64,000 nucleotides of DNA from SAR202 cluster bacterium bin127. GTDB taxonomy: Bacteria; Chloroflexota; Dehalococcoidia; Lucifugimonadales; Lucifugimonadaceae. A model generated the notes under the pieces. That model made no database searches, had not been told where the DNA came from, and saw nothing but the letters and a program-made list of their open reading frames with translations. This document shows, piece after piece, positions 55,904-64,000 of the stretch. The stretch lies in assembly GCA_002239045.1 (NCBI GenBank), contig MPNN01000002.1:349061-413060 (forward strand). Direction: 5' to 3'. The number at the start of each line of letters is the position of its first letter. Position 1 is the first letter of the stretch. Position numbers and translations under genes: made by a program.

Positions 55904-56899
55904 TTAGGCGATCAAGTCCCGATAGCGCAACCGTTTGCCGGACATCCCGCGCACCAGATACACCATCTGGTCGACGGTATCCATGTCCCGAACGCCTTGC
56001 CGTCCCGCGAACTCCGCCACATAGCGGTGCAGGTGCTTGGGCGAGATGCGGTGATACGTGCCGTGGAACCCACGCTTGAGCATCGACCAGAACGACTCCA
56101 CGGCGTTCGTGTGCGCTTGACCACGCACATACTCGCCTACCGAGTGGTTCACCGCTTCATGGCGGATGCCGTTTAACAGGTCGGCGATGTTGTCGTACGC
56201 GGTCGCGCCGTCCGTGTAAAGCGTCGCGCCGTCTTCAACGCTATCTTCCACGAACAAACGCAGGGTTTCACGATCCGTGCTTTGAACCACCCGCGCCTTG
56301 ACCTTGCCGGTCTCGCGATCCTTCGCGCCCACGACGGCGGTTTTGCCGACGGTGCCGCGTCCTGCCTTGGTGCGCTTCCACTCGTGCTTGTTCGATTCCT
56401 TGCCGCCGAAATACGCCTCGTCGACCTCGACCGCGCCGCCGAACGGCGGATCGTCGTTGTCGTCGAACGCCTCGCGGATGCGCTGAAGCATGAACCACGC
56501 CGTCTTTTGAGTAACGCCGATGTCCCGATGGAGTTTCATGGACGACACGCCCTTGAGGGATGTCAGATGCAGGTATATCGCCCACGCCCATTTCCGCAAC
56601 GGGACTTTGGACGTTTCAAGCAACGTTCCGGTGCGGACGCTGAAATACTTGCGGCAGTCGGAACACCAGTAGGGCATTTTGGCGTGGGACGACTCGACGG
56701 TGCGTTCGCCGTTGCATCGCGGGCATTTGCGCCCGTCCGGCCACATCTTGGACTCGAACCAATCCTGTGCCGTTTCTTCGTCTGGGAACATGTCGCCGAG
56801 TTGCAACATGGTGATGCCTCGGCGGTGCGATTTTCCGGGTGCTTTGGAGTGCGCGTCATTCACAACGCCAACCCTTTCAATCCCGCTTTTTCGAGACAT
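55904..56899 (-). CDS. IS1595-family transposase
   Basis: A 331-residue DDE-type transposase of the ISXO2-like group. N-terminal zinc ribbon: CPRCNGERTVESSH and YWCSDCRKYFSVRTGT. The catalytic domain has the first Asp in GAVEVDEAYFGGKES, the second in TLYTDGATAYDN, and the third acidic/amide position in TNAVESFWSMLKRGFHGTYH. Intact and probably active. The start at 56899 overlaps the upstream small gene by 40 bases; ATG 56809 (MLQLGDMFPDEETAQDW) is a plausible alternative. It moves the 3.3-kb element bounded by 24-base inverted repeats. Confidence 0.95.
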   Translation of the reverse strand: MSRKSGIERVGVVNDAHSKAPGKSHRRGITMLQLGDMFPDEETAQDWFESKMWPDGRKCPRCNGERTVESSHAKMPYWCSDCRKYFSVRTGTLLETSKVPLRKWAWAIYLHLTSLKGVSSMKLHRDIGVTQKTAWFMLQRIREAFDDNDDPPFGGAVEVDEAYFGGKESNKHEWKRTKAGRGTVGKTAVVGAKDRETGKVKARVVQSTDRETLRLFVEDSVEDGATLYTDGATAYDNIADLLNGIRHEAVNHSVGEYVRGQAHTNAVESFWSMLKRGFHGTYHRISPKHLHRYVAEFAGRQGVRDMDTVDQMVYLVRGMSGKRLRYRDLIA

Positions 56900-57221: not shown

Positions 57222-57429
57222 AAAGAATTCATACGGTGGTGGTAGGGCAACGACGAGGGGTGTTGCTGCGGTGGTGGTTTTCGGGATCATCTGGGAACTC
57301 GTTTCGCTTGTTCGTTTCTCATTCATTCCGATGTGGCGAGCATTAGTTGCACTTTGAGGGAATTTGTTAGAAAATGATGGAAGAATGTGGAACCGCCGCG
57401 TTGGGAAGTTTTAGGAAGGAGCTTTGAGC

Positions 57430-58821
57430 ATGGCCAATTTGAAGGTGCGTGATGTTGCTGAGCGTTTGGATGTCAGCAGCAAGACGGTCTACAAGTGGCT
57501 TCGTGAGGGGCTTATACCGGCGAGTCGGCTGGGGAGGAGTTGGATCGTATCGGAGGAGGCGCTGCAGGCAGCGCTGGCTCCGGGGTCGAACCGTCCGCTG
57601 TCGAGCGCGGTAGTTGACGAAGACGCGGTGACGTCGGCGTCTGGTTCTGGTGGCGTTCTGGATTCCCGCGTGCGCGGGAATGACGTAGCGCTTGGCGCGG
57701 AACCGATGGTTTCCGTCAAACCATTTGAAAGGAGAACCCCTGTGGGTCGAATTAATGTTGCAGTTGTTGGCTTGGGGAATTGTGCCTCATCGCTGATTCA
57801 AGGTGTTCACAAATATGGCGAGGTCGATGAGAACTCGTCGTCGGTGCCGGGTGTGATGCACAACGTTCTTGGCGGTTACACCATCGGCGATGTGAACATC
57901 GTCGCCGCTTTCGACGTTGACAAGGAGAAGGTCGGCGTAGACATAAACGAAGCGATCTTTGCGAAGACGAACAATGCATTGCAGTTCCACGACGTGCCTC
58001 GTGCTGGCATTGCGGTGGATCGCGGAATGACGCACGATGGGATCGGGCAGTATTTGGAGGATGTGGTGGAGAAGGCTCCGGGATCGACGGCTGACATCGT
58101 GGGGATTCTGCGGGACCGGGAAGTGGATGTAGTGATCAACTACCTTCCGGTGGGTTCGGAGCAGGCGACGAAGTGGTATGTGGAGCAGGTGTTGGCGGCG
58201 GGTTGTGCGTTTGTGAACTGCATCCCGGTGTTTATTGCGAAGGAGCAGTATTGGCAGAAGCGTTTCGAGGACAAGGGAGTGCCGGTCGTTGGGGACGACA
58301 TCAAGTCGCAGGTGGGTGCGACGATCATCCATCGGATGTTGGCGAGGTTGTTCGAGGACCGGGGCGTTCGGTTGGACCGGACGTATCAGCTGAACTTCGG
58401 CGGGAACACGGATTTCTACAACATGCTAGAGCGTGCGCGGCTGGTGACGAAGAAGATATCCAAGACGCAGTCGGTTCAGTCGCAGTTGGAGAAGGAGTTG
58501 CCGACGGATGATGTTCACATTAGTCCTAGCGACCACGTTTCGTGGTTGGAGGATCGGAAGTGGGCTTACATCCGGTTGGAGGGGACGTCTTGGGGCGATG
58601 TGCCGCTGAATGTGGAGTTGAAGTTGGAGGTTGAGGACAGCCCGAACTCTGCGGGGGTAGCGATCGATGCGATTCGTTCGGCGAAGATTGCGCTGGACAA
58701 GGGAGTTGCAGGAGCGATCGAGCCGGCGTCGGCGTACTTCATGAAGTCGCCTCCGGTGCAGATGCGAGACGATGATGCGCGTAAGGCGGTGATTGAGTTT
58801 GCGGGGAATGGGATGGTTTGA
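57430..58821 (+). CDS. HTH domain fused in frame to myo-inositol-1-phosphate synthase
   Basis: One open frame of 463 residues from ATG 57430 (ribosome site GGAAGGAG). Residues 1-50 are an excisionase/MerR-type winged helix: [20 protein letters not shown] then [18 protein letters not shown] linker (about 55-104) follows and includes LDSRVRGND, the translation of a palindromic repeat. From about residue 105 the sequence is a full-length actinobacterial-type Ino1: [20 protein letters not shown] (NAD-binding), [19 protein letters not shown], and [15 protein letters not shown] near the active-site lysines. Ino1 converts glucose-6-phosphate to inositol-3-phosphate. A second, strong ribosome site and GTG 57742 could also produce stand-alone Ino1. 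Confidence 0.9.
57657..57685 (+). repeat. Palindromic repeat inserted within a coding frame
   Basis: TCTGGATTCCCGCGTGCGCGGGAATGACG, identical to many intergenic hairpins (for example near 22537, 28367 and 33241). Here it is read in frame as LDSRVRGND in the HTH-Ino1 linker. Confidence 0.95.
57729..57744 (+). promoter_or_regulatory. Internal ribosome site and GTG start for stand-alone Ino1
   Basis: AAGGAG seven bases before GTG 57742, in frame, exactly at the point where Ino1 homology begins ([17 protein letters not shown]). Confidence 0.7.
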
Positions 58822-59960: not shown

Positions 59961-60755
59961 CTAGCTAGCGTTTACGGTGTGGATGCCGCATTCTTTGGCG
60001 TCGGGGTCGGATTCCCACCACCAGCGTCCGGAGCGTTCGTCTTCGCCGGGTTTTACGGCTCGGGTGCAGGGGGCGCAGCCGATTGAGGGGTAGCCTTTGT
60101 CGTGGAGGATGTTGTAGGGGACTTTGTTGTCGAGGGCGTATTGGCGGATTTGTTCGGCGGTCCAGTTGGCGACGGGGTTGATTTTGTATGCGTCGTGGGC
60201 GAGGTCTTTTTCGACGATCTGGATTTCGGAGCGCTTCATTCCTTGGTCGCGGCGGAGTCCGGTGATCCATGCGTCGGCTTCGCTGAGGGCTTGGTTGAGC
60301 GGGTTGACCTTGCGGATTTCGCAGCAGAGTTTGCGGTTGTTGACGCCTTTGTAGAAGAGGTTCATGCCGTGTTGGCGGATCATTCGTCCGACTTCACGAA
60401 TGTCGGGGTAGTGGACTTCCACCTCGGTGTTGTAGCGGCGGGCGATGCGGTCTATGAGATCGTAGGTCTCTTCGAACAGTCGCATGGTGTCGAGTGTGGC
60501 GAGTCGGGCTTTGGGGTTGACCTTCCAGTACATGTCGAAGATGGCCATGCCGTCGACGGCGAACGAGGACATTTGGATGGCGCGATCGCCGAAGGTATCG
60601 TCGGCCCATTGGAGGATGTCTGACGGGTGCGCCTCTTCGAGCTGTTGGTTGACTTCGGCGAGCTCTTGGTCCGAGAAGCGGTCTAGGACGCGAGGGTTCT
60701 CAAAATCGATCTCGATCGTTTCATAGGATTCGATCTCGTGTTTTGCGAGTGTCAA
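59961..60755 (-). CDS. cysH: Phosphoadenylyl/adenylyl-sulfate reductase
   Basis: Reduces activated sulfate (APS or PAPS) to sulfite in assimilation. The PAPS-reductase fold has IQMSSFAVDGMAIFD (PP-loop region) and LATLDTMRLFEETYDLIDR. The two Cys pairs NRKLCCEIRK and GCAPCTRAV are the iron-sulfur ligands of the APS-reductase subgroup, and the catalytic Cys is in KECGIHTVN near the end. The track start at 60821 is a TTG inside the T-run of a terminator and cannot be right; TTG 60755 after GAGAG gives 264 residues and a normal N-terminus. Controlled by the leader upstream. Confidence 0.9.
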   Translation of the reverse strand: MTLAKHEIESYETIEIDFENPRVLDRFSDQELAEVNQQLEEAHPSDILQWADDTFGDRAIQMSSFAVDGMAIFDMYWKVNPKARLATLDTMRLFEETYDLIDRIARRYNTEVEVHYPDIREVGRMIRQHGMNLFYKGVNNRKLCCEIRKVNPLNQALSEADAWITGLRRDQGMKRSEIQIVEKDLAHDAYKINPVANWTAEQIRQYALDNKVPYNILHDKGYPSIGCAPCTRAVKPGEDERSGRWWWESDPDAKECGIHTVNAS

Positions 60756-60819: not shown

Positions 60820-60853
60820 AAAAAAATACCCCTGCGGCGTGATTTGCAGGGGT
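60820..60853 (-). terminator. Intrinsic terminator in the cysH leader
   Basis: On the minus strand ACCCCTGC, ten-base loop, GCAGGGGT, A, then seven T. It lies 65 bases before the proposed cysH start, so it acts as an attenuator rather than ending a gene. Confidence 0.88.
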
Positions 60854-60889
60854 CATGCGGGCGGCGTAGCGCGGTTTTGGACCGGCTTT

Positions 60890-60990
60890 ACGCGTTGGAA
60901 GGTGCATCTAACCCCGGCACGGGGCTGATACAAGGACACTCTGCGGTTCGAGACCGCTCAGTCAAATAGGACATTCCACGCGTCATTATA
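60890..60990 (-). promoter_or_regulatory. Unidentified three-way-junction leader with -10 box upstream of cysH
   Basis: TATAAT (60985-60990) is followed by a 94-base structure closed by ACGCG-U-GGAA/UUCC-AA-CGCGU. P2 is GACU-GA-GCGGU/ACCGC-AG-AGUGUC with tandem G-A pairs, and P3 is UGUAUC-A-GCCCCG/CGGGGU-UA-GAUGCA. A terminator follows 37 bases later. It fits a riboswitch, but does not match SAM-I, SAM-II, SAM-IV, cobalamin, TPP, purine or T-box patterns by eye. Confidence 0.6.
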
Positions 60991-61136: not shown

Positions 61137-61200
61137 TTGCCCAACCCCTCTGGATTCCGGCTTTCGCCGGAATGACGGAGGTTATGCACAGCACCCACCC
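61137..61200 (+). repeat. Palindromic hairpin with flanking conserved tail
   Basis: CCCCTCTGGATTCCGGCTTTCGCCGGAATGACGG followed by GTTATGCACAGCACCC. The same 60-base composite is at about 14908 and 22018, so hairpin and tail move as one unit. Confidence 0.75.
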
Positions 61201-61223: not shown

Positions 61224-62603
61224 ATGGCAACGATGACCAAAGCACCGATCACCGGCGAGCGTATCGAGGAGTTGCAGAGCATCGCTAGCGAGCATCTTTT
61301 CATGCACGCGCAGCAGGTTGAGGATTGGCGGGGACAGCTCAAGATTTTCATCAAGGGCGAGGGCGCGTGGGTCGAGGACATCGAGGGAAATCGATTGCTG
61401 GACGCGTTGGGCGGTCTTTGGTACAAGGCGGCGGGTTATGGCAGGCGGCAGATCGCGGATGCGATGTACGAGCAGTTGATGGCGATTGAGACGCCGCCGG
61501 CGAACTCGGCGACGCCAACCCAGATCGAATTGGCAGGTCGGATCGCGTCGTTGTATCACGACAAGGATGCGCGAACGTTTTTCTTGTCGGGAGGTTCGGA
61601 GGCGGTCGAGACGGCGGTGAAGATGGCGAAGAAGTACCAGTCGCTAAATGGCAAGGCTGGTGCGTTCAAGGTTATTTCGCGCCGATATTCTTATCACGGA
61701 GCGACGGCGATGGCGGTGAGCCTTGGTCGAAGTCCGGCGGCAGACCCTTGCGGTCCGGAGATGCCGGGTGTGGTTCATGTGACGAACTGGGATTCGTATC
61801 GGTTGCCGTTTGATGGAGACCCGGTTGATGTGGCGATTCGCTGCGCGAATGAGTTCGAAGTTGCGATCAAGCACAACGGCCCGGAGTCGGTTGCGGCGAT
61901 GATTGCGGAGCCGATTTCTGCGGCGGCTGGAATTCATGTTCCGCCGGCGGAGTATTGGCAGCGCTTGCGAGAGATTGCGGATCAGTATGATGTGGTGCTG
62001 ATCGCTGACGAAGTGATCACGGGGTTCGGACGGACTGGCGAGTATTTTGCGCCGATGAATTGGGATGTGAAGCCGGATATCACGACGGTGGCGAAGTCGC
62101 TGACGAGTGGTTACTCGCCGTTGGGCGCGGCGATCGCGTCGAAGAAGATAGCGGATGCGTTCCAAGGCGGTGCGGACGAAACATTTAGGCACCTGGTAAC
62201 TTTTGGGGGGCATCCGGTGAGTACGGCGGCAGCGTTGGCGAATTTGGACGTGTTCGAGGATGAAGACCTAGTGGGCAATAGCCGTCGGATGGGTGATTAT
62301 CTGTATGACGAGTTGCAGCGGTTGCGGGATCATGAGATCGTAGGTGATGTGCGCGGTGGATTGGGTCTCCTAGCAGCCGTTGAGCTGGTGCAAGATCGGG
62401 AGAACAAGACGCCGTTCCCGGCGAGTGCCGGATTGGCGAAGCGAATGCCGCCATTGCTTTTCGAGAATGGCTTGGTTACGTTCCGGGCTGGTGACACGAT
62501 TGCGCTGTGCCCGCCGCTGATGGTCGACAAGGACGAGATCGACTACATAGTCGATGCGGTCGATCGCTCGTTGGCTACGGTGAGTCGTGAGCTTGAACTA
62601 TGA
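61224..62603 (+). CDS. Class III aminotransferase (omega-amino acid type)
   Basis: A 459-residue PLP enzyme of fold type I. Substrate-binding start GEGAWVEDIEGNRLLDALGG, cofactor region LSGGSEAVETAVKMAK (about 116), the Asp of ADEVITGFGRTGEYF (about 260), and the Schiff-base Lys in TTVAKSLTSGYSPLGA (about 290). Family members transfer amino groups from omega-amino acids, taurine or amines; here the donor is unknown. Ribosome site GGAGG before ATG 61224. No operon partners, as repeats flank it on both sides. Confidence 0.92.
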   Translation: MATMTKAPITGERIEELQSIASEHLFMHAQQVEDWRGQLKIFIKGEGAWVEDIEGNRLLDALGGLWYKAAGYGRRQIADAMYEQLMAIETPPANSATPTQIELAGRIASLYHDKDARTFFLSGGSEAVETAVKMAKKYQSLNGKAGAFKVISRRYSYHGATAMAVSLGRSPAADPCGPEMPGVVHVTNWDSYRLPFDGDPVDVAIRCANEFEVAIKHNGPESVAAMIAEPISAAAGIHVPPAEYWQRLREIADQYDVVLIADEVITGFGRTGEYFAPMNWDVKPDITTVAKSLTSGYSPLGAAIASKKIADAFQGGADETFRHLVTFGGHPVSTAAALANLDVFEDEDLVGNSRRMGDYLYDELQRLRDHEIVGDVRGGLGLLAAVELVQDRENKTPFPASAGLAKRMPPLLFENGLVTFRAGDTIALCPPLMVDKDEIDYIVDAVDRSLATVSRELEL

Positions 62604-62611
62604 TGGGCATG

Positions 62612-62933
62612 ATTTGAACTAGGATGCGAAGGATGGGGAAGGATAGGAAGGATGGGTTGTTGTGGGAGGGGGTTGTTGCCGAGTGTGCTACGTCATACCC
62701 GCGCTGCCCTACGTCATACCCGCGCACGCGGGTATCCAGAGAAAAACAAAGCACGCCATTACCCCTCTCCGCCGCCCCTCTGGATTCCGGCTTTCGCCGG
62801 AATGACGGTGGGTTGGCGCGGGATTGACGTGGGGCTTTCGCGGGAATGACGTGGGGGATGGCGCGGCAATGACGGCAGTCGACCACAACCCCCCATCCTT
62901 AAAATCCTTCCCCATCCTTCGCATCCTAGTTCA
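62612..62933 (+). repeat. Complete MITE-like element with about 42-bp inverted arms
   Basis: TGAACTAGGATGCGAAGGAT at the left and its complement ATCCTTCGCATCCTAGTTCA at the right. The arms are complementary over about 42 bases with few mismatches. Inside are ATACCCGCGCACGCGGGTAT and ATTCCGGC hairpins. The clearest full-length example in the window, directly after the aminotransferase stop. Confidence 0.8.
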
Positions 62934-63064
62934 CACCCTACGTCATACCCGCGCACGCGGGTATCCAGAGAAAGGCAAAGCACGCCATAGTTCGTGTGGT
63001 ATTGTGGGAGATATTGCATAATGCAGAGCAATAACAAGGATAAGGACAAGGATATCCCCGCCAT

Positions 63065-63215
63065 GCCCTCTACCCCCCCCCCCAAAAAAAAACATTTTTT
63101 AATCTTTTAAAAAGCCCCCCAAAGTTGCGGGCCCCCCCCTTCCCCCGCCCCCCCCCCCCAGCCCCTCTACCCCCCCCCCCAGAACAACACATGTTCTAAT
63201 CTATTCAGAAGGCCC
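63065..63215 (+). other. Homopolymer-degraded duplicate, probable assembly artefact
   Basis: CTCTACCCCCCCCCC is followed by a run where every short word has collapsed to homopolymers, then the same sequence again in normal form (CTCTACCCCC, AGAACAACACATGTTC). It looks like one stretch read once badly and once well. No biological feature is called here. Confidence 0.75.
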
Positions 63216-63218
63216 CCA

Positions 63219-64000
63219 ATGATGCGGGCCGCCTCCTTCCGCCGCCTCTCCCCGCTCCTTCTGCTGGCCGCCGCGCTCGTTGCGCTGGCGGTTCTCGTTG
63301 CGCCCGGCGCACAGCCCGCCCAGGCCCAGACCACCACCGTCTGGTCCGCCACGCTGACGGCGGGGGATATTTTTGTCGGCCAGAATAATGCCGGTTGCGA
63401 CAATACCGTTACCAGCGCCGCCTGCAGTACAACTGCCGTGCTCACGGACGACAACTTCACGTATGACAGCGTCGACTACGAGGTCGTGCTCTTGAATATA
63501 AACTCAGGGATCCTTGTTTTGACACTCAACAAGGTAATCCCCGCGGAACTCAGGTCGGCTCTGACACTGCATGTCGGCAACGACCAGTTCCCCCTTGCAG
63601 ACGCGAACCTTCCCGCTAGCGACACCGTGAACTGGTCCAACACCGGCCTGAGCTGGTCCGTCGGCGATACGGTGCAGTTGAGCCTGACGGAGCCGCGGAC
63701 GGCGTCCAGCGACGCGGACCTGTCCGGTCTGACGGCGAGCGCGAGCACGAGCGCCTCGGGGACGTTCAGCGCGCTGACGCTGAGCCCCTCGACCTTCGCG
63801 GCGGCGACCACGGCCTACGCGGCGCCGGTGGAGAACGACAGGACGCACGTGAAGATCACCCCGACAGCGAGCGACTCCAACGCCACGGTGGAGGTGGGCA
63901 AGGGGTCGAGCCTCGCGTCGGTGACGAGCGGCAGCGCCAGCGCCGCCATCGCGCTCTCCCCGGGCGCGAACGCGATCACCGTGAAGGTCACCGCCGAGAA
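63219..64000 (+). CDS. Secreted beta-sandwich protein, 5' part only, possibly from another organism
   Basis: Not in the ORF track because it runs off the window: 260 codons open to base 64000. Signal peptide MMRAASFRRLSPLLLLAAAL ending APGAQPAQAQ. The mature part has TLTAGDIFVGQNNAGCDN, then LSLTEPRTASSDADLSGLTA and a cadherin-like beta-sandwich repeat TLSPSTFAAATTAYAAPVE. The codon pattern (third positions nearly all G or C) is unlike the rest of the window. It follows the artefact region directly, so the junction may be a chimera. A real secreted protein, but linkage to this genome is doubtful. Confidence 0.7.
   Translation, partial: MMRAASFRRLSPLLLLAAALVALAVLVAPGAQPAQAQTTTVWSATLTAGDIFVGQNNAGCDNTVTSAACSTTAVLTDDNFTYDSVDYEVVLLNINSGILVLTLNKVIPAELRSALTLHVGNDQFPLADANLPASDTVNWSNTGLSWSVGDTVQLSLTEPRTASSDADLSGLTASASTSASGTFSALTLSPSTFAAATTAYAAPVENDRTHVKITPTASDSNATVEVGKGSSLASVTSGSASAAIALSPGANAITVKVTAE

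Follow-up and report, generated by a model that had tools for sequence, protein, structure and literature searches.

Which kind of regulatory element precedes cysH on the minus strand of the window, the 64,000-nucleotide stretch of DNA analysed here, and what does it sense? The window genome belongs to the Dehalococcoidia (Chloroflexota); its nearest named relative is OX638325.1, and its relatives are MAGs that carry the label Dehalococcoidia or Chloroflexi. The initial annotation had proposed a transcription-attenuating riboswitch, consisting of a −10 box, a 94-base structure with a closing stem and two arms joined in a three-way junction, and an intrinsic terminator 65 bases before the start of a sulfate-assimilation gene. 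Because the perfect TATAAT, a folded leader, the terminator and cysH are all present (Table 1), this anatomy was right in outline. The identity of the gene as a PAPS/APS reductase is confirmed, and the terminator U-tract ends 64 nt ahead of TTG 60755, which bears out the annotated distance of 65 bases. This TTG, which lies behind a conserved purine-rich ribosome site, is the likely cysH start: GAGAG/GGAGA followed by TTGAC is conserved there in the same-genus alignment. What had been overlooked is a conserved short open reading frame (ORF) that runs through the supposed aptamer. We propose that the leader is very probably a ribosome-mediated transcription attenuator of the trp type, which would sense charged tRNA-Cys by way of a short, near-leaderless leader peptide.

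Table 1 Coordinates of the cysH leader, its predicted pairings and neighboring elements in the window
Feature	Position	Strand	Remarks
−10 box TATAAT (perfect)	60985..60990	−	10 nt before leader-ORF ATG
Leader ORF, 28 codons, MSYLTERSRTAECPCISPVPGLDAPSNA	60888..60974	−	Homologous ORFs in five same-genus genomes
Upstream hairpin (arm 1), GCGGTCTCGAACCGC	60943..60957	−	Inside leader ORF
Control codons TGT CCT TGT (Cys-Pro-Cys)	60930..60938	−	Both TGT invariant in 6/6 same-genus leaders
1:2 hairpin (arm 2), TGTATCAGCCCCGTGCCGGGGTTAGATGCA	60903..60932	−	−16.9 kcal/mol
Region 2, GTGCCGGGGTTAGATGC	60904..60920	−	Predicted to pair with region 3 as antiterminator, −17.4 kcal/mol
Region 3, GCATGACCCCTGCAA	60843..60857	−	Includes terminator 5′ arm ACCCCTGC
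Intrinsic terminator (3:4 hairpin) and U-tract	60820..60853	−	Hairpin −14.9 kcal/mol
cysH, phosphoadenylyl-/adenylylsulfate reductase	59961..60755	−	Likely TTG start at 60755; open frame reaches 60821
REP-like palindromes	61140–61185, 62690–62830, 62935–62970		

The three-way junction among close relatives

The leader does fold better than chance, with a z score of −2.67 over 186 nt (a value reached by 1 of 200 shuffles) and of −4.3 for the 98-nt core of same-genus leader L002. The details of the proposed structure fared less well among the homologous leaders found ahead of cysH in five same-genus genomes. Energy minimization yields the three-way junction only for the window sequence and its 97% twin; the remaining four leaders, taken singly, fold differently. 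Over the six sequences, pairing is kept in 76% of alignment cells for the closing stem, 79% for arm 1 and 93% for arm 2. Covariation is scarce in the closing stem, where a single pair has changes on both sides, and in arm 1; arm 2 is mostly invariant. The tandem G-A pairs noted in one arm occur in L001 and L002 (alignment columns 26–27 with 43–44) and nowhere else among the same-genus leaders. Searches of Rfam 15 with the window and 20 relatives returned weak chance matches and none at or above the gathering score, in line with the earlier statement that no known class fits, riboswitch and T-box classes included.

A short cysteine-codon ORF precedes cysH across the order

Within the genus, the ECxCxSP core and the open frame of the leader ORF are kept in all six leaders, and the length of its tail and the position of its stop codon vary. 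Values of pN/pS are 0.3–0.5 for most pairs and near or above 1 in a few (above 1 in two). We rejected dN/dS within the genus as stand-alone proof of coding, the synonymous bias being too modest and non-uniform, and taken alone the same-genus conservation of the ORF is only suggestive of coding. At E above 0.01, DNA matches outside the genus (G037 and G007) were discarded as chance hits to unrelated coding genes.

The window's own leader peptide would contain two Cys codons only. We place most weight on regions upstream of cysH from the family, order and class, a wider comparison that we regard as decisive for reading the frame as a putative leader peptide. Across the family and order, cysH leaders carry ORFs for overt poly-Cys peptides (MKPVAIRVTCACTCRSGHSEGSS, NMCTCCCPSPAREIG and SCVCCCCCMPASAG), with further Cys-run upstream ORFs (uORFs) at the equivalent place (MSSKFYCNCACTCRLTFETGVV, MKMLNKRPANMCTCCCPSPAREIG, MFLDNHQNCACACCATLLGTPD, MASSCVCCCCCMPASAGSEVLSG, MFQTFIPCCCCSDNEGKAFVSGAQEK and others); a poly-Cys short ORF stands before cysH over most of the family as well as in several of the order's other families. 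Three or more Cys within 8 residues are encoded in 30 of 47 leaders, compared with a mean of 1.57 and a maximum of 5 in 100 shuffled sets and with 1 on the reverse strand, and at least four Cys in 19 of 47, compared with 0.08 in shuffles, although the 47 leaders are related by descent and the counts overstate their independence. Seven of the 47 score fewer than two Cys, and two of these (L156 and L157) have a visible terminator. No uORF with at least three or at least four Cys was found in the 64 cysH leaders from distant families of the class. In f23, a family of another order of the class, leaders L109, L110 and L113 have Cys uORFs (MNTQSHRNSPSVIALAQRAAVTCSCCCMPTQGREAGPLS, VTCSCYMPVPGRE and VTCSCCCMPTQGRE) with terminators before cysH; the reverse-strand count in this family is no lower, so these three sequences prove little alone.

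The spacing between TATAAT and ATG is exactly 10 nt in all six same-genus leaders, and promoter spacing places the predicted transcription start of the window leader near 60978, about 7 nt past the −10 box. The ATG would then lie only about 4 nt from the 5′ end, making the ORF near-leaderless. In the wider set, a −10 box (5/6 or better) stands 7–11 nt ahead of the start codon in 24 of 40 leaders, a spacing found for 3.1% of ATGs overall in these loci, and 38 of 40 have no Shine–Dalgarno-like sequence before the uORF. The −10 spacing and the missing Shine–Dalgarno sequence make it probable that ribosomes read the uORF from an mRNA that is leaderless or nearly so. A consensus scan for promoters and terminators reported neither the −10 promoter nor the terminator of the window leader, because the −35 box is poor and the terminator loop is longer than the 8 that the scan allows.

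The segment after the Cys codons co-varies with the terminator

In the window, the terminator arms ACCCCTGC (60853–60846) and GCAGGGGT (60835–60828) are separated by a loop and followed by T7 ending at 60820. An intrinsic terminator with a U-tract follows the uORF in 40 of the 43 ORF-bearing leaders examined. Region 2, the G-rich segment immediately after the Cys codons, complements the 5′ arm of this terminator (region 3), and the mean energy of the 2:3 duplex is −14.0 kcal/mol, compared with −8.7 in shuffles (best of 40 shuffle sets, −9.55). The two regions change together between genera and families: GCCGGGGT is found with ACCCCTGC in the window's genus, GAGGGA with TCCCTT in L036, GCTCGGGGG with CCCCTCGAGC in L071 and GGGGCGG with CCGCCCC in L109. 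When partners were swapped, with one leader taken per genus or family, the native 2:3 pairing was better in 5,000 of 5,000 permutations.

We also folded the leaders under a ribosome mask, a thermodynamic test with an assumed ribosome footprint. The modelled probability that region 3 is held by upstream pairing was 0.71 with the ribosome at the first Cys codon, 0.64 at the last and 0.39 at the stop codon. Relative to a ribosome at the stop, modelled stalling at the Cys codons sequestered the terminator arm by 0.37 more, compared with a mean of 0.11 and a maximum of 0.19 in shuffles; several leaders (L071, L093 and L095) showed little modelled discrimination. In the sequence and in this model, antiterminator and terminator are mutually exclusive, the choice between them being set by the position of the ribosome. 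The ORF, the terminator and the alternative pairings agree with the transcription-attenuating role first assigned to this leader of a sulfate-assimilation gene.

Proposed mechanism and alternatives

From the sequence we infer the following course of translation, ribosome stalling and termination, and with it the direction in which cysH would be regulated. A ribosome would initiate at the AUG near the 5′ end of the cysH leader. When Cys-tRNA is scarce, it would stall at the Cys codons and cover region 1, so that region 2 could pair with region 3; the resulting antiterminator would block the 3:4 terminator, and cysH would be transcribed. When cysteine is ample, the ribosome would continue to the uORF stop codon, where region 2 would be covered or refolded into the 1:2 hairpin. 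Region 3 would then be free, the 3:4 terminator would form and transcription would stop ahead of cysH. The upstream hairpin within the ORF is possibly a pause hairpin.

The sensor envisaged in the initial annotation, a ligand-binding riboswitch, is most likely wrong, its place being taken by a putatively translated short ORF with Cys codons. A new metabolite-binding riboswitch, in which the three-way junction would bind a sulfur metabolite and control the terminator directly while the ORF is incidental, would account for the stable fold, the terminator, the metabolic gene and, within the genus, the strong nucleotide conservation in and around arm 2. We consider it extremely improbable, however, given the incomplete pairing (76–79% of cells) and scant covariation of the closing stem and arm 1, the empty Rfam searches, and the finding that a peptide with Cys codons can be read from the conserved stretch. 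Moreover, relatives in the family have the Cys codons and the terminator without the junction sequence, and with a start near 60978, half of the 5′ strand of the closing stem (60983–60979) would lie upstream of the transcript. An orphan riboswitch built on this junction was accordingly rejected, as neither conservation nor covariation among same-genus relatives supports the junction.

Two other readings retain the Cys uORF. It could control whether ribosomes reach the cysH ribosome site, or it could act through Rho-dependent termination, as suggested for Actinobacteria, where Cys leader peptides lack terminators (PMC1262725) and those of mycobacteria are described as translation attenuation (PMC13236596). 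The U-tract terminators of the cysH leaders, together with the pairing and covariation of the G-rich segment with the terminator 5′ arm, render such translational control very unlikely. Alternatively, the nascent Cys-rich peptide, rather than a lack of Cys-tRNA, could stall the ribosome in response to a thiol or a metal; Cys-X-Cys and Cys runs could bind metals, and residues flanking the Cys codons are partly conserved within the genus. Across genera, however, the Cys codons alone are kept and the surrounding residues differ, as expected for codon sensing and not for a specific arrest sequence, so that we give an arrest peptide hardly any credence. Attenuation by charged tRNA-Cys thus stays our strongly preferred interpretation.

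Control appears to be centred on cysH or its operon among the genes checked: no convincing Cys uORF with a terminator was found before sat, sulfite reductase (sir), cysK or the SulP transporter gene (sulP) in the window's genome, nor any before cysS in 12 genomes checked. In some relatives sat lies directly downstream of cysH, and in others cysH is followed by genes whose translations read by eye as cysD-cysN, arrangements that fit a cysteine-biosynthesis operon; in the window's genus, sat is not beside cysH and is located elsewhere. Serine acetyltransferase (TIGR01172, cysE) was absent at E of 1e-20 or better from 12 of 12 genomes of the order, although a strong cysK-like gene is present in the genome that contains the window, and these genomes may reach the cysteine precursor by a different route.

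Relation to known attenuators

The E. coli trp operon attenuator combines control codons, alternative 1:2, 2:3 and 3:4 pairings and an intrinsic terminator. The cysH leader has the same elements and differs in the amino acid that would be sensed, in the gene controlled and in its near-leaderless start without a Shine–Dalgarno sequence. Attenuation by leader peptides with Cys codons is a known kind of control, to which the cysH leader would belong. In the uORFC-8-2 motif upstream of cysS in Rhodobacterales, stems and an intrinsic terminator lie downstream of a uORF in which two Cys codons are conserved, and ribosome-mediated attenuation by Cys-tRNA has been proposed for this motif (PMC8632094). 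The cysH leader shares the order of Cys-codon uORF and terminator; it differs from this alphaproteobacterial motif in its gene, its phylum, its near-leaderless start and its codons, which form Cys-X-Cys (Cys-Pro-Cys in the window) or longer runs instead of a tandem pair. Cys-codon leader peptides also precede cysteine-biosynthesis genes in Mycobacterium, P. acnes and B. longum, where no conserved terminator hairpins accompany them (PMC1262725), and leaderless polycysteine short ORFs of mycobacteria were tested by Canestrari et al. 2020 (as cited in PMC13236596). Like these, the cysH leaders have a short ORF with runs of Cys codons that, judging from promoter spacing, would start at or near the transcript 5′ end; unlike the actinobacterial leaders, they have an intrinsic terminator and a co-varying antiterminator.

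In the literature searched, which covered few subscription papers, we found no attenuator reported for this Chloroflexota group, and what appears new is the target gene, the phylum and the joining of a near-leaderless start to a trp-type switch whose segments co-vary. The cysH gene would join a short list of genes with intrinsic-terminator attenuators and Cys control codons, and cysteine supply may adjust the expression of cysH, and of the sulfate-assimilation operons behind it in relatives, in a large part of the Chloroflexota that is mostly uncultured. Near-leaderless translation combined with trp-type attenuation would make it possible to test how closely a leaderless ribosome has to follow RNA polymerase. 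The locus also illustrates how a single-sequence reading can make a leader-peptide attenuator look like an orphan riboswitch. It is possible, if rather doubtful, that such control extends order-wide in the Dehalococcoidia, with a leaderless-initiating ribosome coupled to RNA polymerase governing the intrinsic terminator and serving as the principal sensor of cysteine for sulfate assimilation; the peptide of the window's genus would then have shrunk to Cys-X-Cys and its RNA gained extra structure, possibly adding a second input.

Genomic surroundings

Divergent from cysH lies a class III aminotransferase gene (61224–62603, plus strand), an arrangement repeated with a similar gene in other genera (L037, L038 and L040). 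Repeated palindromic elements of REP-like appearance, CTGGATTCCGGCTTTCGCCGGAATGACGG and TACGTCATACCCGCGCACGCGGGTATCCAGAG, flank the aminotransferase gene on both sides. The window's end is the last base of the contig, and near it, at 63060–63260, a stretch is present twice; the first copy looks degraded into C, A and T homopolymer runs and the second is normal, which may reflect an error of sequencing or assembly. A transposase-like gene (55904–56899, minus strand) looks intact, has a zinc-ribbon start and resembles the ISXO2/IS1595 type by eye. An inositol-3-phosphate synthase gene (57424–58821, plus strand) encodes an excisionase-type helix-turn-helix domain at its N terminus (residues 8–52) ahead of a region of the mycothiol INO1 family (residues 110–459), and an open frame similar to this synthase is found near cysH in relative L034.
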